Origin: Acidobacteriota bacterium
GTDB taxonomy: Bacteria > Acidobacteriota > Blastocatellia > Chloracidobacteriales > JADJPF01
Assembly: GCA_016213785.1 (NCBI GenBank)
Contig: JACQZQ010000113.1
Location: 1-64,000, forward strand
DNA length: 64,000 nt
Direction: 5' to 3'
Below the pieces are notes generated by a model. It searched no databases and had not been told where the DNA came from. It was given only the letters and a program-made list of their open reading frames with translations. Position numbers and translations under genes: made by a program. The first letter of the stretch is position 1; each line of letters begins with the position of its first letter. Of this stretch, positions 42,422 to 52,511 are shown one piece after another.

Positions 42422-45400
42422 ATGCATATAGATAAATCAGACCCAATTATTGGAAGAACGTTAGGAGATTTTTCGGTAAAAAAAAAGTTAGGAGAAGGAG
42501 GGTTTGGAGCAGTTTATAAAGCAACTCAAATAACCTTAGAACGAGAGGCCGTAATAAAAGTACTACATATTAAACATAGAACTAATAAAGACGTGATAGC
42601 ACGTTTTAAGAGAGAAGCCTATTTAGCTTCAAGATTAGAACATCCATATTGTGCACATATTTACTCGTTTGGAGCAGAAAGTGATGGATTACTGTGGATT
42701 GCAATGGAATATGTTGCTGGCACACCTCTAAATGAAATACTTAAGGCTCAGAAAAAATTACCTTTAGAAAAGTTTGTTCCATTATTGGATAAAATCTGTG
42801 AAGTCGTTCATACCGCACATGAAGCAAACATTATTCATCGTGATATTAAACCTGCCAATGTTATGATTATTTCCCGCGCTGGGCGGCTCCTTCCTAAACT
42901 TCTAGATTTTGGAATTGCCAAAGGCTTAAATCAAAACCCTATTAAAGAAAAGACTATTATTGCTAATAAAGTTCCTAAAGAAAGCAACACAATTAATGAC
43001 CAGGAAACTATTAAAGATAATGTTTTAATACCTCAAGAAACTCTTATAGAGAATAATTTTGTTATTAACAACGCTAGCCCAAAGAGTCAAAATATAGTTG
43101 ATAATAATTCTAAAAGTCAGAAAACTATTATTGGAAGTGATGTAAACCAAAAAGTTGTTATTGACAAAAATATTTTTCTTAAAAGCCAGAAAACTATTAT
43201 TGGAAGCGATATAAGCCAAAATACTGTCATTACTAATGATAATTTAAAGAATCAAGAAACTATTATTGGCAATGATAAATCTACTAGCCAAGAAACCATA
43301 GTTAGTAATCAAAATAAATATATACAAGATTTTACAAAGTTAGAGGAAGAAATCCCCAATAATAGAGAGCTAATAACATATATTGAAAATGCAGAAAGCA
43401 ATATAAGTACAGAAACCTTCAAGACACAAGGATTTATAGGCTCCCCACCTTATATGTCGCCTGAACAATGGCAAAATGGAAAAGTTGATGCTAGAAGTGA
43501 TATTTATTCCTTAGGCATTTTGACTTATAAAGTAATTACAGGAGCGCTTCCATTTAAGGAAAAAGGCTTTGAGCTTTATGGGGCACACGTTTGTAAAGAA
43601 GTTCCTCCTCTTAGAGAAGGGTTTCCTGTGAAAGTTAATGAAGTCTTACAAAAAGCCTTAGCTAAAAAGCCAGAAAATCGTTATCAAACAGCTTTAGAAT
43701 TTGCAAAAGAATTTCGACAAGCAGCAAACTTTGATGAAGAAAAAGCTCTCTTGCCTGAGTTTGATGAGATTATAAAAGAAAATTTATTAGCTAATGCCCC
43801 AAAGCCAATAGCTGAAAGCCTTGCAAGTTTACTCGCTTCTCATAATGCCTATCAATTCAAAGATAGAGTTTTATTAGTTTTTCGGGTTTTAATACGTTAT
43901 ATAGGTATATTAGCTTTAGCTAGTTATACTAGTACTGCCAATAAGCAACAAAATAATGAGTTAATAAATAAATCTGTAAGTACTTTATACAAAGAATCAT
44001 TAAGTGAAGCCCAATGGATAGAGCTTTCTAGGGAGTTATGCCGTAGTTTTGCTAAAAAAAGAGACGTATTTCCAATTCCAGAACTTGTAACACTCTTTTT
44101 TGCTGATAATGATGACTCTCCTAGTCCTGTAAGTGATCTAGCTGCCAACCTTTTGCAGCTACAAGAAAAAATAATAATGGCGGTGTCATTAAAAGAAGAA
44201 AGCTTAATTGAGTTACTTGAAGAATTTCTATCTAAACTTACTATGTTGCTAAGAAAAGTAAGCTGGATATGTGATTACTACTTAGTAGAACCTAAAGCAA
44301 ATCAAGCAACTAAATGGATGGGTACATCAAAAAGTTTTGGTCTAATGTCTGTAAAGAGTAGTAACTTAGCTAATGAAAAAGCAATGTTATTAGATTCAAA
44401 TGGACATTTTGTTCTTTTACTATGGCCGCTAGTAGAAATAGTAGAACCAAGTTTAGGAACAGCAAAAGAGATCTTTTTTCTTGATGGAAAAGCCCGAAGT
44501 GGAACAAAACTAGTTAGCTTTCCTCAAGCTTTTGAAATAGAAACACAATCAGCTTTTGATTGGGCAAAAGAACATTTTTTTGGAGGAGAGGAAAAAGCTA
44601 AAACAGACTCACTTCTTGAAAAATCTCCTTATTTAGGGTTAGCTAGTTTTTCTCCAAAAGATTCAACTCTATTTTTTGGAAGAGAGAAAGAAACAGAAAG
44701 CTTTCTTAATCGCCTCAGAGTACAACCACTACTAGCCGTAGTAGGTGCATCAGGAGCAGGCAAAAGCTCTTTTGTCCAAGCAGGTGTTGTAGCTTGTTTG
44801 GATAAAAGCTGGAGTGTTCTAACAATTCGGCCTGGCATTTCTCCTATCTCTACTTTATCTGCAAAGCTTTCTAAACTGGGGCTTGAGCTAATCAACTTAA
44901 AATCCGATTTAGAAAAAGATATAGAATGCTTAGCTAAAATCTTAAGAATGTTTGCTATAGCTAATAGAGGTAGGATTTTAATAGTAGTAGATCAATTTGA
45001 AGAGATATTTACTCTTTGTTTAGATAAACAAGAGCAAAAGCTTTATGTAGAAGCACTAGTTTCGCTTGCACGCTCAGAAGAAGACCCCATTAGAGTAATA
45101 CTAACAATGCGTGATGATTTTTTAGTTAGAGCTAAAGAATTAAACGCTCTAAAAGATCGTCTTAATCAATCCATAGAAATCTTAACAATACCTGATTCTT
45201 CTCAACTTCTTAAAATATTAGTACTTCCAGCTAGGCGAGTAGGATATGAATTTGAAGATAGTAATTTACCTATAGAGATAGTAAATGAACTAACAGGACA
45301 AACTAGTGCATTGCCTTTACTAGCCTTTACAGCAGCAAAACTTTGGGAACAACGAGACAATCAATTTAAACAACTTCGTCGCAGAAATTATAAGTCAATG

Positions 45401-48028
45401 GGAGGAGTAGGCGGTGCGCTTGCTCATCATGCTGAAAGTATGCTTCAACAAATGACACAATCAGAACAATCGCTTGTTCGTGAAGCATTCCGTCATCTTG
45501 TAACAAGCCAAGGGACTCGTGCTATTTTAACTCGTCTGGAGTTATTACAACTACTTGGAAAGACAACAGATAGCGAAGCAGTGATAGAAAAGCTTATCTC
45601 AGCTAGGCTTTTAGTTGCTACTGAAGGAGAAAAAGGCATAGATCGTATAGAAGTTATTCATGAAGCACTACTATCAACTTGGCCTCGCCTTGTTAAATGG
45701 CGACAAGAAGATGCTGAAGGGGCAAGATTAAGAGATCAGCTTCGTTCTGCTGCTAGGCAATGGCAAGAACGTAATTATCCTAAAGGTTTATTATGGCGTG
45801 ATGAAGTATTAACAGAATATCAGCTTTGGAGAACACACTATAAAGGAAAGTTAACAGAAGTAGAAGAAGAATTTGCACAAATAAGTCTCTCAGATGCGAC
45901 TCGTAGCCAACGCATAAAGCAAGCCTTAGTCATAATGGCAATAGTTATCTTACTAATGGTTTCTTCCATTATGTTTTATCAAAGGCAACAAACAGAAAAA
46001 CAACTTCTAAAAACCTTAGAACTTTATGAAGAACAAGGTCGGCAAGAAATATTAAAAGGAAAATTTGATCGAGCAGCAGTTTACCTTAGTGAAGCTTATG
46101 CAAAGGGAGATAGTAGCCTAACTTTAAGATATATGCTCTCAGTTGCATTAGCAAAAGTAGAAAATCATCCTCCTATCACACTTTCAAATCATACAGATGT
46201 AGTAACAATGGTTAGTTTTAGCCCTGATGATACTTTAGTTGCAACTTCCAGCATGGATAAAACTGCTCGTATTTGGCAAACTACTGATGGAAAAGAGCTT
46301 TTTGTGCTTAAAGGCCATGAAAGTCCAGTAATATCAAGTAGGTTTAGCTTTGATGGACAGTTCTTAGTAACAGCAAGTGTAGATAAAACAGCAAGAATAT
46401 GGAAAGTATCAGATGGTAGTTTAGTTGCAGTTCTTCAGGGACATACTGATGCATTAAGAGGAGCAGAATTTAGTCCTGACGGTAAAAAAGTATTAACTTG
46501 GAGCTATGACCAAACAGCTAAGATTTGGGATACTACAACTAGTAAACTATTAAATACTTTAGAAGGTCATCTTGGAGCTATTTATGCTGCAAGTTATAGC
46601 AAAAGTGGTAAGTTAATAGCTACTGCTTCGTCAGACCAAACAGCTAAGGTTTGGGATAGTAGCAGTGGTCAATTAAAAAACACACTAAATAGTCATCAAG
46701 CAGCAGTGGTAAATCTTGCCTTTAGCCCAGATGAAAAATTATTAGTAACAGCTAGCACTGATAAGACTGCAAAAGTTTGGCAGTTAGAGGATGGGAAACT
46801 TCTTGACACGCTCGCTAACCATCAATCAGGAGTAACAAACTGTAAGTTTAGTCCTGATGGAAAGGAAATCTTAACTACAAGTGCCGATACCAGAGCTTAT
46901 CTTTGGGAGAGTTCTACAAGGAAATTACTTTGGACTTTAGAAAGTCATACTGGAGATATAGTAAGTGGAGATTTTAGCTTTGATGGAAATTTAATCATTA
47001 CTAGTTCTTATGACAATACAGTAAGAGTATGGGAAAAAAATACTGGCAAATTTCTTGTAGCTTTCACAGAACACAAAAATTCAGTGATAGCAGCTATATT
47101 TTCTAGTAAAACAGACAAAATACTTAGTGCTAGTGAGGATAGAACAGCAAAAATTTGGCAACTAGAAGTGGAAAGACGATCTCCTTTGGAAATAAGCAAA
47201 ATAGTGAAAGAGAAAGTGCCTATAGAGTTGATAGAAGGTAGATTAATTTCTACGCAACCTGTAATACAAGAAGTGAAAAAAGAAGTTATAAAAACACAAG
47301 AACGCCCAGGAGAGAATCTTTATATAGAAAATATAGGCAGTGGTATAAATTTGGAGATGGTGAAAATACAAGCAGGAGAATTTGAAATGGGTTCACCTGT
47401 TAGCGAAAAAGGACGCAATGCAGATGAGCAACTGCATAAAGTAAAAATATCAAAAGACTTTTATATAGGTAGATTTGAAGTAACACAAGCCCAATGGAGA
47501 ATAGTAGCAGGATTACCTACAATAAATATATCTCTCAAGTCAGATCCATCTGGATTTAAAGGAGATAATTTACCTGTGGAACAAGTAAGTTGGCATGAAG
47601 TAGTAGAGTTTTGCGCAAGGTTATCAAAATTAACAGGAAAGCAATATCGCTTGCCAACAGAAGCAGAGTGGGAATATGTTGCCCGTGCAGGTAGCAAGAA
47701 CAACTATCCAGAAAACTTAGATGAACTTGCTTGGTATGATAAAAACTCTGAGGGTAGAACCCATGCTGTAGGACAAAAAAAAGCAAACCCTTGGGGTTTG
47801 TATGATATTTATGGAAATGTTTATGAATGGTGTCTAGATTTATATGGAAATTACCCAAGTGCAACCGTTATAGATCCAAGTGGTGCTAATTTAGGCGTAT
47901 ACCGTGTTTTTCGTGGAGGCAATTGGAAAGACGGCATAATTCACTGCCGATCAGCATATCGTAGTGATAACTTACCAACTGAAAGTGGTAGAGGTTTAGG
48001 TTTTCGTCTATTGAGAAGTTTAGAATAA
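42422..48028 (+). CDS. Giant Ser/Thr kinase-nSTAND ATPase-WD40-FGE-like fusion
   Basis: A 1868-residue multidomain protein. Residues ~18-440: Hanks kinase with GEGGFGAVYKA, AVIKVL, HRDIKPAN, DFG at 162-164 and SPPYMSPE ending at 348. The activation segment is inflated by ~150 residues of Gln/Thr/Asn repeats. Residues ~735-1130: nSTAND-type NTPase with Walker A GASGAGKSS (K781) and Walker B IVVDQFEE (D857). A transmembrane helix lies at ~1167-1185. Eight WD40 units (DKTARIW, DQTAKIW and similar) span ~1253-1583. The C-terminal ~225 residues are a formylglycine-generating-enzyme-like (SUMF1) domain ending RGGNW, CRSAYR, GLGFRLL. Only one of the two active-site cysteines of true FGE is present, so that domain is probably a binding module. 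Confidence 0.92.
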   Translation: MHIDKSDPIIGRTLGDFSVKKKLGEGGFGAVYKATQITLEREAVIKVLHIKHRTNKDVIARFKREAYLASRLEHPYCAHIYSFGAESDGLLWIAMEYVAGTPLNEILKAQKKLPLEKFVPLLDKICEVVHTAHEANIIHRDIKPANVMIISRAGRLLPKLLDFGIAKGLNQNPIKEKTIIANKVPKESNTINDQETIKDNVLIPQETLIENNFVINNASPKSQNIVDNNSKSQKTIIGSDVNQKVVIDKNIFLKSQKTIIGSDISQNTVITNDNLKNQETIIGNDKSTSQETIVSNQNKYIQDFTKLEEEIPNNRELITYIENAESNISTETFKTQGFIGSPPYMSPEQWQNGKVDARSDIYSLGILTYKVITGALPFKEKGFELYGAHVCKEVPPLREGFPVKVNEVLQKALAKKPENRYQTALEFAKEFRQAANFDEEKALLPEFDEIIKENLLANAPKPIAESLASLLASHNAYQFKDRVLLVFRVLIRYIGILALASYTSTANKQQNNELINKSVSTLYKESLSEAQWIELSRELCRSFAKKRDVFPIPELVTLFFADNDDSPSPVSDLAANLLQLQEKIIMAVSLKEESLIELLEEFLSKLTMLLRKVSWICDYYLVEPKANQATKWMGTSKSFGLMSVKSSNLANEKAMLLDSNGHFVLLLWPLVEIVEPSLGTAKEIFFLDGKARSGTKLVSFPQAFEIETQSAFDWAKEHFFGGEEKAKTDSLLEKSPYLGLASFSPKDSTLFFGREKETESFLNRLRVQPLLAVVGASGAGKSSFVQAGVVACLDKSWSVLTIRPGISPISTLSAKLSKLGLELINLKSDLEKDIECLAKILRMFAIANRGRILIVVDQFEEIFTLCLDKQEQKLYVEALVSLARSEEDPIRVILTMRDDFLVRAKELNALKDRLNQSIEILTIPDSSQLLKILVLPARRVGYEFEDSNLPIEIVNELTGQTSALPLLAFTAAKLWEQRDNQFKQLRRRNYKSMGGVGGALAHHAESMLQQMTQSEQSLVREAFRHLVTSQGTRAILTRLELLQLLGKTTDSEAVIEKLISARLLVATEGEKGIDRIEVIHEALLSTWPRLVKWRQEDAEGARLRDQLRSAARQWQERNYPKGLLWRDEVLTEYQLWRTHYKGKLTEVEEEFAQISLSDATRSQRIKQALVIMAIVILLMVSSIMFYQRQQTEKQLLKTLELYEEQGRQEILKGKFDRAAVYLSEAYAKGDSSLTLRYMLSVALAKVENHPPITLSNHTDVVTMVSFSPDDTLVATSSMDKTARIWQTTDGKELFVLKGHESPVISSRFSFDGQFLVTASVDKTARIWKVSDGSLVAVLQGHTDALRGAEFSPDGKKVLTWSYDQTAKIWDTTTSKLLNTLEGHLGAIYAASYSKSGKLIATASSDQTAKVWDSSSGQLKNTLNSHQAAVVNLAFSPDEKLLVTASTDKTAKVWQLEDGKLLDTLANHQSGVTNCKFSPDGKEILTTSADTRAYLWESSTRKLLWTLESHTGDIVSGDFSFDGNLIITSSYDNTVRVWEKNTGKFLVAFTEHKNSVIAAIFSSKTDKILSASEDRTAKIWQLEVERRSPLEISKIVKEKVPIELIEGRLISTQPVIQEVKKEVIKTQERPGENLYIENIGSGINLEMVKIQAGEFEMGSPVSEKGRNADEQLHKVKISKDFYIGRFEVTQAQWRIVAGLPTINISLKSDPSGFKGDNLPVEQVSWHEVVEFCARLSKLTGKQYRLPTEAEWEYVARAGSKNNYPENLDELAWYDKNSEGRTHAVGQKKANPWGLYDIYGNVYEWCLDLYGNYPSATVIDPSGANLGVYRVFRGGNWKDGIIHCRSAYRSDNLPTESGRGLGFRLLRSLE

Positions 48029-48098: not shown

Positions 48099-49094
48099 TT
48101 ATTTCTCTATTGTATCTTCTTTCTCAACTCCTATTTCTAGAAAGGAAGAGGAGGGCTTTTCTATTGGGTTCTCTATTCCTCGACGATATGAGTGAGAGAG
48201 GGTTAAAAGAATAGGCTTGTTGGTTTTATATGGGAAGTTAATTCCAGAAACCCCTTCAGCTGGATAGCTTGTTCCTTCACGCCTAACAATATATTTTATT
48301 TTTGTAGCATCTGTGCAAGTTGAGATTTTAATTAGAGGTGTTTTGATTTCTGCTATTCCATGCAAAGCAGACCATTCTACAGGCCAAGACAACATTTCTT
48401 GTATAACCTTTATGCTATCTGTATGTCCTGTTTGGTCTCCTACCTCTAAAAGCTTAAGAGCAAGTTCTAGGCTTGGCTTGCAATTAAAACTACAAGGTAG
48501 GTGTGGTATAAGACGGATTCCTAGCCAACGAAGGAGAATATTTAATTCTATTGGGCCTGCAACTTCACACATAGAAAAGCTTAATTCATTTGTAGAATGT
48601 TGATTTATAGAATTAAGAGCCATACTCCAAGTAGTATCAATTAGCCCTTGCTTAATCCAGCTATCAATAAAGAATTTAATGCAACAGTCAGGAAAACCAT
48701 GAAGTTTTCCAATTAGATTATCGTCTTTTTTATCCCAAGCTTCTTTAAATGCTTGTACTTTTTCAGGTTTTCCAATTGCACAAAGGTAGTTAAATGCTTG
48801 TCCTGGTTGTATTTTAACTGGCAGTGATTGATATGGAGACTTTGAACAACCAATTGTTTGGATAGGCATTGCTAAAAGGCCAAATTTACTTACACGGTCA
48901 GTAAAATCTACAAGCCCTTCAGGCGTAATAAGTTGCAAAGCACAAGCTCTAATTTCATAGGCGACTGATAACCACTCTATTTCTTGTTGTGCTTTAATAG
49001 CTTTATTAATTAAAGGTTCCCAAGAAATACGTGCATTTTCACTAGCCCACATATGTCTTGTAAAATCTGGTAAACGAAAATTTAATCTTTCCAT
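48099..49094 (-). CDS. Cys-rich protein, DUF483-like, in the radical SAM locus
   Basis: A 331-residue protein downstream of the radical SAM gene on the same strand. Conserved-looking features are GFPDCCIKFF (~136), a central IELNILLRWLGIRLIPHLPC with SFNCKPSLELALKLL following, and a C-terminal region with CTDATKIKYIV. The GFPxCCxxFF plus HLPCSxxC pattern resembles the uncharacterised DUF483 family; I assign this tentatively. The paired cysteines suggest metal or cluster binding. There is no signal peptide or membrane segment. Its position and orientation (86 bases after the maturase) suggest a role in making or handling the repeat peptide. Confidence 0.6.
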   Translation of the reverse strand: MERLNFRLPDFTRHMWASENARISWEPLINKAIKAQQEIEWLSVAYEIRACALQLITPEGLVDFTDRVSKFGLLAMPIQTIGCSKSPYQSLPVKIQPGQAFNYLCAIGKPEKVQAFKEAWDKKDDNLIGKLHGFPDCCIKFFIDSWIKQGLIDTTWSMALNSINQHSTNELSFSMCEVAGPIELNILLRWLGIRLIPHLPCSFNCKPSLELALKLLEVGDQTGHTDSIKVIQEMLSWPVEWSALHGIAEIKTPLIKISTCTDATKIKYIVRREGTSYPAEGVSGINFPYKTNKPILLTLSHSYRRGIENPIEKPSSSFLEIGVEKEDTIEK

Positions 49095-49179
49095 ATGATA
49101 TTTGTAAGAATTAGATCTGGGAATACCAAAATATACGTATATGGGCTTTTTAAGCTCTTACGCTATTAGCCCATTAGTA

Positions 49180-50358
49180 CTATATTTTATGTGTTGTATT
49201 ATTTTTTACCAATTTTGTGACCAATGATGAAAGAGTTGGGTTTGAGCCTTGTTCCCAGGCTTTGAGCATTGCATCCTCGATCACTGGTCGATCGGGGTGT
49301 AAAGAAATAGGCGTTTTGCCTTGATTAACTAGTCTTTCTTCCATTCTTTGGAATAATTCTTTCCATAAGCCACAATGTTCTGTTCTATTACGCCAATCAT
49401 TATCAATAGCAGTTCCAGGGCATTGGCCTTTACAGGATAAAAAGAATTTACATTCATTACATCCGCCAAATTCTTGTGGAGTATAGTAAAGTGCTAAATA
49501 GCGTTCATAACCAACGGTTTTTGCTTTAATAAAATCAATTCCATCCTTGTTTGTTCTTCCACAGTTACTTTGTTTACCATCACCCTCTATTCCTTGAACC
49601 GAAGCTGTTGTGTAGGGATCGCATGCCATCCACACACAAGTTGTTGATTTATCATCGGCTAACAGCATTTTTTCAATATCTGTAAAAACATCAAGCTTGA
49701 GTGAACTTAATGATAGTTCTAATTCTGCAAAGTTAACAAAGGCTCTTAAATTTTCCTCTTCTGAAAGGGCATATTTATCTCGAATCGTATAGTGATCTAC
49801 TTCCAAGGCATGTAAACGAATAAATTTTACCCCAATTTTGTCAAGATATTTAATCCAATCATTAAGTATAGCTAGTTTATCTGTGGTAGCATTGGCGCGG
49901 TGTAAAGTAATAATGAGATTTACTCGGATACCTTCTTTACATAAAAGCTCGATAGCTTTTTCTGATTTTTCCGTTAATAAACGGGTTTTCTCTAAACTTC
50001 CTGCCCATCGAACGTCATTTAGTTCTCCAGGCCCGTCAATTGATATGCCAATAGACACTGCATATTGTTTGAACATTCTGATGTGATTTTTATTTATTAA
50101 AGTTCCATTAGTTTGAATACTATTTTTACCAAATTTAGAGTATCCCCAAGACAGTATTTCTTCTAAATCTTTTTCTGGTATTAGTAAAGGTTCTCCCCCA
50201 AAAAGTGTAAATGGTTTGTTATAAGCTAAAATAGCATTTTTCATTTTGTCGATGTTATAACTTTTACTTAAATTATTAGCATCTCGCTGTGGATTTTGGT
50301 AACAATACTGACAAGCAATATTGCAGTTAACTCCTAAAGGTCGTAACTCAATAGTCAT
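49180..50358 (-). CDS. Radical SAM/SPASM peptide maturase
   Basis: A 392-residue radical SAM protein with a SPASM domain. The SAM cluster motif is C12-x3-C16-x2-C19 in NCNIACQYCYQ, followed by FTLFGGEPLL and SIDGPGELN. The C-terminal SPASM cysteines include CVWMACDP, SNCGRTNKDG and CNECKFFLSCKGQCPG (C-x2-C-x5-C-x3-C) and a final HC, as needed for two auxiliary [4Fe-4S] clusters. Such enzymes install thioether, C-C or C-O links or epimerise residues in precursor peptides. The His-x-Asp repeat peptide encoded upstream on the same strand is the obvious substrate. No separate RRE (PqqD-like) gene is seen. Confidence 0.88.
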   Translation of the reverse strand: MTIELRPLGVNCNIACQYCYQNPQRDANNLSKSYNIDKMKNAILAYNKPFTLFGGEPLLIPEKDLEEILSWGYSKFGKNSIQTNGTLINKNHIRMFKQYAVSIGISIDGPGELNDVRWAGSLEKTRLLTEKSEKAIELLCKEGIRVNLIITLHRANATTDKLAILNDWIKYLDKIGVKFIRLHALEVDHYTIRDKYALSEEENLRAFVNFAELELSLSSLKLDVFTDIEKMLLADDKSTTCVWMACDPYTTASVQGIEGDGKQSNCGRTNKDGIDFIKAKTVGYERYLALYYTPQEFGGCNECKFFLSCKGQCPGTAIDNDWRNRTEHCGLWKELFQRMEERLVNQGKTPISLHPDRPVIEDAMLKAWEQGSNPTLSSLVTKLVKNNTTHKI

Positions 50359-50685
50359 AATGTCCTCTTAAATAATTGCTTTTTGGGAAAACTAAGAAAT
50401 TTTTTTAAATCCAGAAAATGATGAAAGAGTTTTTCTTGCATATTGTAATATTTGACTTAAAAAATAAGAAAATTTATTGCTATAAATTTAATTGTTTCAA
50501 TCATAACTAGTTATAAAAATTCTCATTTTTTAAGTTCGATACTATAGAAAACTCTTTTGCTAATTCTTAGCTATAACGCTTTAAGGCATAGCCTATTTAT
50601 TATCAACAGTTTTTTCTTATTCTATTGTTTTTCTTAGCCTAACTTATTAGGTTACTGCTCTAAATGTTAGGTATAAAGCCCTAGC
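50359..50685. other. Long leader between repeat-peptide and maturase genes
   Basis: A 327-base AT-rich gap within the putative RiPP operon. A small inverted repeat CCTAA-CTTA-TTAGG lies at 50638-50651, soon after the peptide stop, without a strong T-run on the minus strand. It may act as partial attenuation giving more peptide than enzyme transcript, but that is inference. No convincing promoter for the maturase was found. Confidence 0.35.
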
Positions 50686-51006
50686 TTAAGGGTTAGGTGG
50701 CTCACTAATATCGGTGTGAGAAGGTGGGCCATCACTATGAGGTGTATCATCAGGTGGGGGAGGATCGCCAATATCGGTGTGACCTGGTTGGCCGTTATCG
50801 GTATGAGGCATATCGGGAGGATCGCTAATATCGGTGTGCCCAACAGGCCCGCTGTTATCAATATGAGGCATATCAGGAGGATCGCTAATATCGGTGTGGG
50901 AGGGTGGAGCATCACTGTGTTGGTCTGAAAAAAACACAGTTTGTGAATATTGTAATGGATTAGCTGAGTCAATAAATTGAGAAACATTTTTTTCATGAGT
51001 AGCCAT
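50686..51006 (-). CDS. Candidate RiPP precursor with His-x-Asp repeats
   Basis: A 106-residue peptide. Residues 1-~29 (MATHEKNVSQFIDSANPLQ onward) look like a leader. The rest contains eight His-x-Asp triplets (HSD, HTD, HID, HTD, HTD, HTD, HSD, HTD) in a Pro/Gly/Asp-rich setting. Four units begin HTDI(S/G)(D/E)PP, spaced 20, 19 and 21 residues; inside the units a second triplet follows Pro (PHIDN, PHTDN, PHSDG). There are no cysteines. The start is supported by AGGAG eight bases before the ATG. The maturase gene is next on the same strand, so this fits a precursor modified at each repeat. An alternative is an unmodified metal-binding peptide. Confidence 0.8.
   Translation of the reverse strand: MATHEKNVSQFIDSANPLQYSQTVFFSDQHSDAPPSHTDISDPPDMPHIDNSGPVGHTDISDPPDMPHTDNGQPGHTDIGDPPPPDDTPHSDGPPSHTDISEPPNP
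50710..50898 (-). repeat. In-frame DNA repeats encoding HTDI units
   Basis: The nine bases encoding HTD, identical in all four copies, lie at 50710-50718, 50773-50781, 50830-50838 and 50890-50898 (plus-strand ATCGGTGTG). Periods are 63, 57 and 60 bases, all multiples of three. Neighbouring codons are also conserved at the DNA level, suggesting recent expansion by unequal exchange with selection for frame. Confidence 0.9.
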
Positions 51007-51112
51007 ACTATAATCTCCTAAATGTGTTGGAACTAAATCAAAATGTCTTTACTGATTTTTTCTTAGAAGGGATAGAGTATATTATAAATGGAGAATTTGG
51101 AAAAACGGAAAA

Positions 51113-51997
51113 ATGAAACCAAATATGATTTTACATGAAACACTAGCTTTTTTAGAAATAAGGAAATTAATTGTAGGAAAATCTATTCGTAGTATTTCCC
51201 TAACTCCTTATTTTACTGTGGTTCAATTAGATGATGGCAGTGTTGGGGCTGCTATGAGTTACTACAGCCAATCAGACGAACTTTGCAAGCTAATCCCTTC
51301 AATTATTTCATTTATTGAGCAAGACCCTCTGTTGCTCCGAGGACTATTCTATGAGGACGATCTACTAACACGACTAGGTGTTTCTACTAGAGAAGCTCAG
51401 TTGCTTGCTAATTCACTCCGAACAGCAATTATTAGTGCTCTTTCTTTTCCCTGTTTAGAATCAGGTGGAGATGGTACTTTTGTTGTTTCTCAAAAATTTC
51501 CGTTTAATCCTTTTGCTGAAGCTAAACGAGCCGTAGTAATTGGTTTTGGGGGGTATATTGATGCCCTAGCTAAAGCTGACCAAATTAAGCATTTACACAT
51601 AAGTGACCTACAATGTTCTACAAACAACTATATGCATAGAACTATAGCTAAATATCAAAACTACTTTCCAAGAAAAAATTTTACCTTTTCGGATGGAACA
51701 GACATAAAGTATCAAGTAGAAAATGCTGATGTAGTTACAATTACAGGATCTACATTGTGCAATGGCACTCTTGAAGAAATTCTTGAGTATACTAAAAGTA
51801 GAGCAATTGTAGTTGTTCAAGGTCAAAGCGCAAGTATTTATCCTATGTCACTATTTAATCGTGGGGTTAATTTGGTTGTGACAACTCTCAAACCATCAAT
51901 TTTGGTTCAATTGGCAGCTAATGACAAATCTGGACAAAATCTTCGCCCTTATTTAGAAAGGGGATTGCCTTCTATCTATTTATCTCCATTAAGTTAA
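51113..51997 (+). CDS. DUF4213/DUF364 protein, putative heavy-metal chelation
   Basis: A 294-residue protein. The N-terminal part (HETLAFLEIRKLIVGKSI, FTVVQLDDGSVGAAM) matches the DUF4213 domain, with an enolase-N-like fold. The C-terminal part is the Rossmann-like DUF364: VVIGFGGYIDALA, DVVTITGSTLCNGTLEEIL, IVVVQGQSASIYPMSLFNRG. The family is annotated as putative heavy-metal chelation from structure. It is divergent from the His-x-Asp peptide gene with about 106 bases between the starts, which may be a shared control region. With that peptide it suggests metal handling. Family assignment is from remembered motifs, not a search. Confidence 0.7.
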   Translation: MKPNMILHETLAFLEIRKLIVGKSIRSISLTPYFTVVQLDDGSVGAAMSYYSQSDELCKLIPSIISFIEQDPLLLRGLFYEDDLLTRLGVSTREAQLLANSLRTAIISALSFPCLESGGDGTFVVSQKFPFNPFAEAKRAVVIGFGGYIDALAKADQIKHLHISDLQCSTNNYMHRTIAKYQNYFPRKNFTFSDGTDIKYQVENADVVTITGSTLCNGTLEEILEYTKSRAIVVVQGQSASIYPMSLFNRGVNLVVTTLKPSILVQLAANDKSGQNLRPYLERGLPSIYLSPLS

Positions 51998-51999
51998 TA

Positions 52000-52431
52000 T
52001 CAACATTTGGGGCGATAGTTTGATACATTGGTCTTGAAGTCTACTACCTGTAGTCGTGGCTCTGCTGGCAAGGGTGCGTCTGGTGCTAGGACATAATCTG
52101 GTTCAGGATCACAGAGAAAGCGCACAGCAGATATTGTGGAATGCTGGAGTACATAGGCTTTCGCGATGCGATGTCCGCCATCCATCAAGTAGCCTTCGGA
52201 TGAGAGAATTATTGGATAGTTCAAGTCAGCATTAAGGATGCGGCGGGTGTGCTCGGCAACTGCCCGACAAGTAGGAGGTGTAGTTGGGCCAAACCAGCAA
52301 TTCTGGTCAAACGCGGCAATTTGGTTAATAGACAACTGCTCTATAGGCAAATCGCGAGCAAGATACCACAAACGTTCAACAAACCAAACAAGACGACCTG
52401 CACTTGTGACACGTGAATGCTTATGTGCCAT
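52000..52431 (-). CDS. ParB/sulfiredoxin-fold protein of foreign base composition
   Basis: A 143-residue protein. The start at 52431 (MAHKHSRVTSAGRLVWF) is preferred over an ATG 12 bases earlier because GGAGG lies five bases before it. The segment CRAVAEHTRRILNADLNYPII followed by GYLMDGGHRIAKAYVL is the ParB/Srx nuclease-like motif (here GGHR in place of GxxR). Similar stand-alone proteins occur in gamma-proteobacteria, where no function is established. Two 60-base rows counted by hand are about 52-53% G+C, well above the surroundings, which suggests recent acquisition. It ends three bases from the convergent DUF364 gene. Confidence 0.65.
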   Translation of the reverse strand: MAHKHSRVTSAGRLVWFVERLWYLARDLPIEQLSINQIAAFDQNCWFGPTTPPTCRAVAEHTRRILNADLNYPIILSSEGYLMDGGHRIAKAYVLQHSTISAVRFLCDPEPDYVLAPDAPLPAEPRLQVVDFKTNVSNYRPKC

Positions 52432-52511
52432 AGCATCCTCCATCTAAATATCACCTAAATATTTATATAATTTAAGTATATTAACTGATTTAATTTACCT
52501 ATACTGAATGA

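Follow-up and report, generated by a model that had tools for sequence, protein, structure and literature searches.

The question raised by the locus described here is what a radical S-adenosylmethionine (SAM) enzyme does to a neighboring peptide rich in His-x-Asp (HxD) triplets. The locus lies in a 64,000-nucleotide stretch of DNA from an Acidobacteriota bacterium (contig JACQZQ010000113.1; hereafter, the window), and a preliminary description of this DNA had proposed a peptide-modification system built of the peptide, a radical SAM/SPASM enzyme (the maturase), a DUF483-like protein, and a DUF364 protein. It was found that the observation is real, conserved, and wider than had been proposed: the conserved unit joins a DUF483-like partner and a radical SAM/SPASM enzyme, whose family stands well apart from others, with a substrate protein that bears aromatic-x-[Asp/Asn] triplets, mostly His-x-Asp. 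The HxD repeat protein is very likely the substrate of this maturase, and it is likely that the window locus is a virus-derived multi-core cyclophane system that is now on a bacterial chromosome. All four genes of the preliminary description were confirmed, coordinates included; the three that belong to the conserved unit, with the DNA repeat inside the first of them, are as follows:

50686 to 51006, minus strand: HxD-repeat protein of 106 amino acids, putative substrate, with eight His-x-Asp triplets plus FID and FSD
50759 to 50898, no strand assigned: 60-bp tandem repeat coding for the repeated core units, 2.4 copies in the DNA
49180 to 50358, minus strand: radical SAM/SPASM maturase that belongs to the HxD family and is predicted to be an aromatic-x-Asp cyclophane synthase
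48099 to 49094, minus strand: DUF483-like partner, predicted substrate-handling or second modification factor

The window peptide contains nine His residues, eight of them in HxD triplets as had been described, and when it was shuffled 100,000 times with its composition kept, the shuffles contained 1.4 HxD on average and 7 at most, never 8. Two Phe-x-Asp triplets, FID and FSD, stand before His triplets. The earlier division of the peptide into four near-identical units was roughly right, the underlying DNA holding the 2.4 tandem copies listed above. The gap between the peptide and maturase genes is 327 bp, and no terminator-like site was found in it. The maturase (392 amino acids) is a complete radical SAM/SPASM enzyme by its domain match, with a C12-x3-C16-x2-C19 motif and eight auxiliary-cluster Cys residues; all of these cluster residues are intact and invariant across 28 relatives, which bears out the earlier assignment.

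Co-occurrence of the Maturase, HxD Proteins, and DUF483-like Genes

The family set comprised 90 loci, mostly from tailed viruses, with a scan of IMG/VR giving 80 further viral loci and a genome scan giving five bacterial members (loci L088 to L092). When the genome collection was scanned with a single sequence, no match was obtained, whereas an alignment-based scan gave matches. The negative controls were 75 other radical SAM loci from the same genome scan, and the two groups were separated by a gap in score (at least 146 bits for the family and at most 70 bits for the controls).

An HxD-dense open reading frame (ORF), defined as an ORF other than the maturase in which a stretch of 60 residues holds five or more HxD, was found in 77 of the 90 family loci and in none of the 75 control loci. 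An HxD ORF was located upstream of the maturase, as in the window, at a distance of at most 300 nt in 65 of the 90 loci. A DUF483-like gene was present in 82 of the 90 family loci and in 0 of the 75 controls. For the 64 loci with ample flanks, these numbers were 59/64 for the HxD ORF and 63/64 for the DUF483-like gene. The Fisher P value for co-occurrence was 1e-33, which overstates the certainty because near-copy loci make the counts non-independent; despite some near-copy loci, the family tree covers long distances. In each of three members found later (L307, L313, and L314), the gene directly upstream of the maturase codes for an HxD protein.

In the reverse search, a degenerate DNA pattern for four HxD yielded 49 HxD-dense ORFs, 33 of which had a maturase in the fetched stretch. 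Most of the others were truncated contigs or simple DNA repeats, and a maturase lies elsewhere on three of these contigs; near-perfect repeats of HRHSD, RHGDP, HPDPD, and the like were excluded by eye as simple-sequence DNA. The pairing of HxD protein and maturase extends over several phyla and many viruses and includes a haloarchaeal plasmid. The link between peptide and maturase is firmer and broader than the preliminary description could show, and the DUF483-like protein is part of the system.

The earlier statement that no described system is of this kind was not quite right. The available passages of a 2024 paper (PMC11437467) report a trio of a radical SAM enzyme, a DUF483 protein, and an unknown protein in the phages Cumys and phiMa and in prophages, and suggest DNA modification; these passages do not mention the HxD motif, and the word "histidine" is absent from the text available. 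If the radical SAM/DUF483 module modified phage DNA, the HxD proteins would be an unrelated tail feature. The location of homologues near deazapurine DNA-modification genes in cyanobacteria, given in the same passages, is in favor of this idea, but whichever way the search is run, HxD proteins and the maturase go together, on chromosomes and in viruses alike, and 61 of the 90 maturases hold at least three HxD within their own sequence, so that we regard it as extremely improbable.

Putative Substrate Proteins and the Sequence Rule of the Triplets

The putative substrates in bacteria are either a short peptide (the window and L088) or the end of a protein of 900 to 1400 residues (L090, L092, L307, and L313). 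In Cumys, the maturase is separated from the tail genes by a 343-amino-acid protein with 54 HxD and is followed by the DUF483 gene. Some HxD stretches are the C-terminal ends of large proteins, one of which bears a laminin-G/lectin domain, and PHROGs and Pfam searches left most of the HxD proteins without a name. Many of the maturases bear HxD tails and may modify themselves. Paired adjacent maturase-like genes, one with a long HxD extension, were seen in L068, L073, and L076. In a 104.9 kb virus (contig G500), several mixed HxD/HxN repeat proteins are close to one maturase (L309), and a collagen-like HxD protein is encoded at another place (L244).

Among 65 non-redundant HxD proteins, Asp was found at position +2 for 88% of the His residues, compared to 18.6% in shuffles. 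Within dense stretches, Asp or Asn was at +2 of 96.9% of His, 40.6% of Phe, 36.6% of Tyr, and 35.7% of Trp residues, compared to 0 to 9.2% for Leu, Ile, Val, Met, Ala, Lys, Arg, Gln, Glu, Pro, Ser, Thr, and Gly. The number of Phe, Trp, and Tyr triplets was 277, against 81 ± 8 when residues other than His, Asp, and Asn were permuted. The odds ratio for Phe plus Trp versus aliphatic residues before x-[DN] was 9, and the pattern recurred in a held-out set of 34 proteins (odds ratio 8.8). The codons of Phe and Trp are more than one step from those of His, and Gln, Leu, Pro, and Arg, which are reachable, are not enriched; therefore, these triplets are not the result of mutational decay. In Fulvivirga (L090, 4841 to 7975, plus strand), a 1044-amino-acid carrier, of which the HxD carrier of L313 is a homologue (E 1e-20), has a C-terminal end of seven His-x-Lys, where the homologues have His-x-Asp. 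The Lys beta-carbon can act as an acceptor, as in darobactin and streptide, and the Fulvivirga triplets, on a homologous carrier, would be a natural acceptor switch.

An aromatic residue at i and a suitable acceptor at i+2 is the substrate rule of three-residue cyclophane synthases, and it is at odds with metal chelation. The preliminary description had proposed metal binding for the product, and the HxD repeats could be metal-binding arms with His and Asp ligands, which the maturase adjusts or beside which it acts elsewhere. His and Asp are classic metal ligands, and the adjacent DUF364 protein is annotated for putative heavy-metal chelation; however, Phe and Trp, which are not metal ligands, stand in for His in register, Cys and Glu are not enriched there, the His-x-Lys of the Fulvivirga homologue speaks against metal ligation, and DUF364 is absent from the other collected loci. 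Metal binding is therefore disfavored as the reason for the motif, and we consider such arms very unlikely; the product may still bind metal as a secondary feature.

Proposed Reaction of the Maturase

By analogy with three-residue cyclophane synthases, ring chemistry is probably what the maturase performs. In the proposed mechanism, the 5'-deoxyadenosyl radical of the maturase would abstract a beta-hydrogen from Asp (or Asn, or Lys in Fulvivirga), and the beta-carbon would be joined to the ring of the His, Tyr, Phe, or Trp two residues earlier, giving one three-residue cyclophane and a change of -2 Da per triplet. Many rounds along one chain would give a stiff, rod-like stretch, and the product of the window locus would be a 106-amino-acid protein with up to ten rings. 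Aromatic-x-acceptor cores adjoin the enzyme gene, which is the mark looked for in substrates of triceptide systems.

Another radical reaction on HxD, such as epimerization, a C-N or ether cross-link, or other chemistry on Asp and His side chains, is in our estimate unlikely. SPASM enzymes catalyze many reactions, the sulfatase maturase, AmcB, DynA, and PapB models score alike, and DUF483 fusions to methyltransferase and glycosyltransferase hint at further chemistry. However, the i,i+2 spacing, with aromatics swappable at i and Asp, Asn, or Lys at i+2, is needed for a ring-to-beta-carbon bond and is unexplained by epimerization.

The AlphaFold2 model of the window maturase (predicted local distance difference test, pLDDT, 91.6) was nearest in fold to anSMEcpe and ChlB, with a template modeling (TM) score of about 0.69 for each, and the curated models nearest in sequence include AmcB, YhhB, and DynA. 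Several observations weigh against a cyclophane synthase acting on HxD substrates. In sequence and predicted fold, the maturase is equally close to anaerobic sulfatase maturases (anSMEs), and the cut-offs of the curated cyclophane-synthase models (XyeB, GrrM/OscB, FxsB, YhhB, and AmcB) were not reached, with best scores of about 60 to 83 bits against cut-offs of 310 to 450. In the held-out proteins, Trp-x-[DN] was weak (14.6%). No HxD ORF lies near the maturase in L003 and L061, two loci with ample flanks, and the signals in L008 and L029 are only weak. Finally, an enzyme of the aKG-HExxH type, which accompanies some members of the family, was not found on a search of the window genome.

DUF483-like Partner and Accessory Enzymes

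The window DUF483-like protein (331 amino acids) scores 24.6 bits, against a Pfam gathering cut-off of 25, and its relatives in L025 and L091 score above this cut-off. G-x-P-x-C-C, P-C-x3-C, and W/D/H residues are conserved in these proteins. The structural model is confident (pLDDT 88.8), and a PDB fold search with it gave no relative at E<0.001. The maturase and the DUF483-like protein form a single chain in three bacteria (L088, L089, and L092), the phage DUF483-like genes of L060, L025, L069, and L077 are fused to SAM methyltransferase domains, and in L086 (11062 to 12780), the DUF483-like domain is fused to a family 2 glycosyltransferase. Because of these various fusions, we infer that the DUF483-like protein handles the substrate, which it would hold or feed to the maturase; the methyltransferase fusions suggest a second modification, and a catalytic role via the conserved Cys, Asp, and His residues is conceivable. 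A glycosyltransferase-like ORF was also seen by eye downstream in L314 (4852 to 5685).

An aKG-HExxH enzyme is encoded near the maturase in 8 of the 90 loci and in L313, and those of L090 and L313 exceed the curated cut-off of TIGR04267 (peptide beta-hydroxylase).

Viral Setting and Origin of the Window Locus

The nearest phage relatives of the window maturase are those of the Thermus phages phiLo, Cumys, and phiMa (51 to 54% identity), and the top plasmid relatives are haloarchaeal. No second maturase copy was found among the window relatives or in 396 genomes of the phylum at the cut-offs used, and the gene is therefore rare there. In the tree, the window falls in a supported clade (95/93) with L088, L089, L090, and L092, covering four phyla, among viral maturases. 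We read this branching as pointing to capture of the system by bacteria from viruses and subsequent spread among bacteria. The genes flanking the window locus look chromosomal, with no evident prophage, as judged by eye.

In the viruses examined, substrate genes are found among tail genes, and a tail-associated protein often carries the HxD stretch as its C-terminal part. In Halomicrococcus, a baseplate gene is followed by a 206-amino-acid HxD protein, the maturase, and the DUF483-like protein. The preliminary description was thus right in pairing the HxD peptide with the maturase but missed the mainly viral family and the substrates in tail modules. The best reading is that in viruses the system decorates tail proteins; that stiffening of tails is the purpose is a proposal on which our judgement is evenly balanced. 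We lean towards the wider view that tailed viruses infecting bacteria and archaea encode a radical SAM cyclophane synthase of their own, which makes long chains of aromatic-Asp cross-links in parts of the tail proteins, a type of structural change that is not known from virions. In this view, bacteria of several phyla adopted the system to act on proteins of their own, and DUF483 is a new module for substrate handling that methyl- and glycosyltransferases share. A literature search of open-licence papers found no report of cyclophanes in virions or phage tails.

Radical SAM cross-linking is known mainly on small peptides, and here it is seemingly applied to large virion proteins, with up to dozens of cross-links per chain. 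If true, this would amount to a new class of virion modification, in viruses of many habitats; DUF483-like proteins and numerous phage proteins that lack a name would gain a function, and an enzyme for closing simple H-x-D tags into rings would become available. The reading is directly testable, because Thermus phages that carry these genes have already been isolated and grown.

Neighboring Genes

51113 to 51997, plus strand: DUF364 protein, scoring above the DUF364 cut-off and under the DUF4213 cut-off

Of the two domain names previously given to this gene, DUF364 was retained and DUF4213 was not. Its protein had been proposed as part of the system and was dropped as a partner on finding no relative across the other collected loci; it looks like a chance neighbor. 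A 147-amino-acid protein (52000 to 52443, minus strand), whose GHRIAKA motif recalls ParB-like proteins, had no Pfam or NCBIfam match and, when tested against the collected loci, was likewise dropped as a partner. The product of 42422 to 48028 (plus strand, 1868 amino acids) reads like a fusion of Ser/Thr kinase, NTPase, WD40, and formylglycine-enzyme-like parts.

Comparison with Known Systems

The closest solved structure by sequence is anSMEcpe, which has the same SPASM cluster layout. The Asp that follows an auxiliary Cys is catalytic in anSME; in contrast, the window enzyme has Gly there (C266-G267), and it scores 85.9 bits against a cut-off of 349. An identity as an anaerobic sulfatase maturase was therefore rejected.

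The His-Xaa-Ser (HxsB) system also has a His-x repeat peptide beside a SPASM enzyme, but with Ser instead of Asp/Asn at +2. In the proteins collected here, Ser was at this position in 10 cases and Asp in 1968, and HxsB was outside the top models for the window enzyme, being a weak, below-cut-off match for one maturase relative; this identity was also rejected.

ChlB is a radical SAM enzyme making several cyclophanes per peptide, and its partner ChlH, of the aKG-HExxH type, hydroxylates His and Asp on the ChlB cyclophane peptide (PMC12636437). The likeness extends to the fold and to the HExxH partners in the HxD family. Unlike ChlB/ChlH, the HxD family often has a long HxD stretch on structural proteins together with a DUF483 partner, the full-length sequence match to ChlB is poor, and HExxH is missing from most loci, the window included.

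The comparison with triceptides made in the preliminary description was the right one, in that the aromatic-x-Asp/Asn rule fits three-residue cyclophane synthases. In the triceptide synthases XncB, OscB, MscB, YxdB, HaaB, and YhhB, an aromatic residue at i is linked to i+2, and Asp/Asn acceptors and His donors are each known: OscB takes Asn and Asp as acceptors, YxdB takes Asp, and HaaB and YhhB use C2 of His on the ring side (PMC11002830). The pairs listed there are Trp-Asn/Asp, Tyr-Asp, His-Ala, and His-Arg, and these examples do not include a His-to-Asp pair; the HxD family differs further in having up to dozens of cores per chain and viral tail substrates. The Thermus phage module of Cumys and phiMa, as given in the available passages of PMC11437467, has the same trio as the loci collected here, with the third protein now seen to be the HxD protein.

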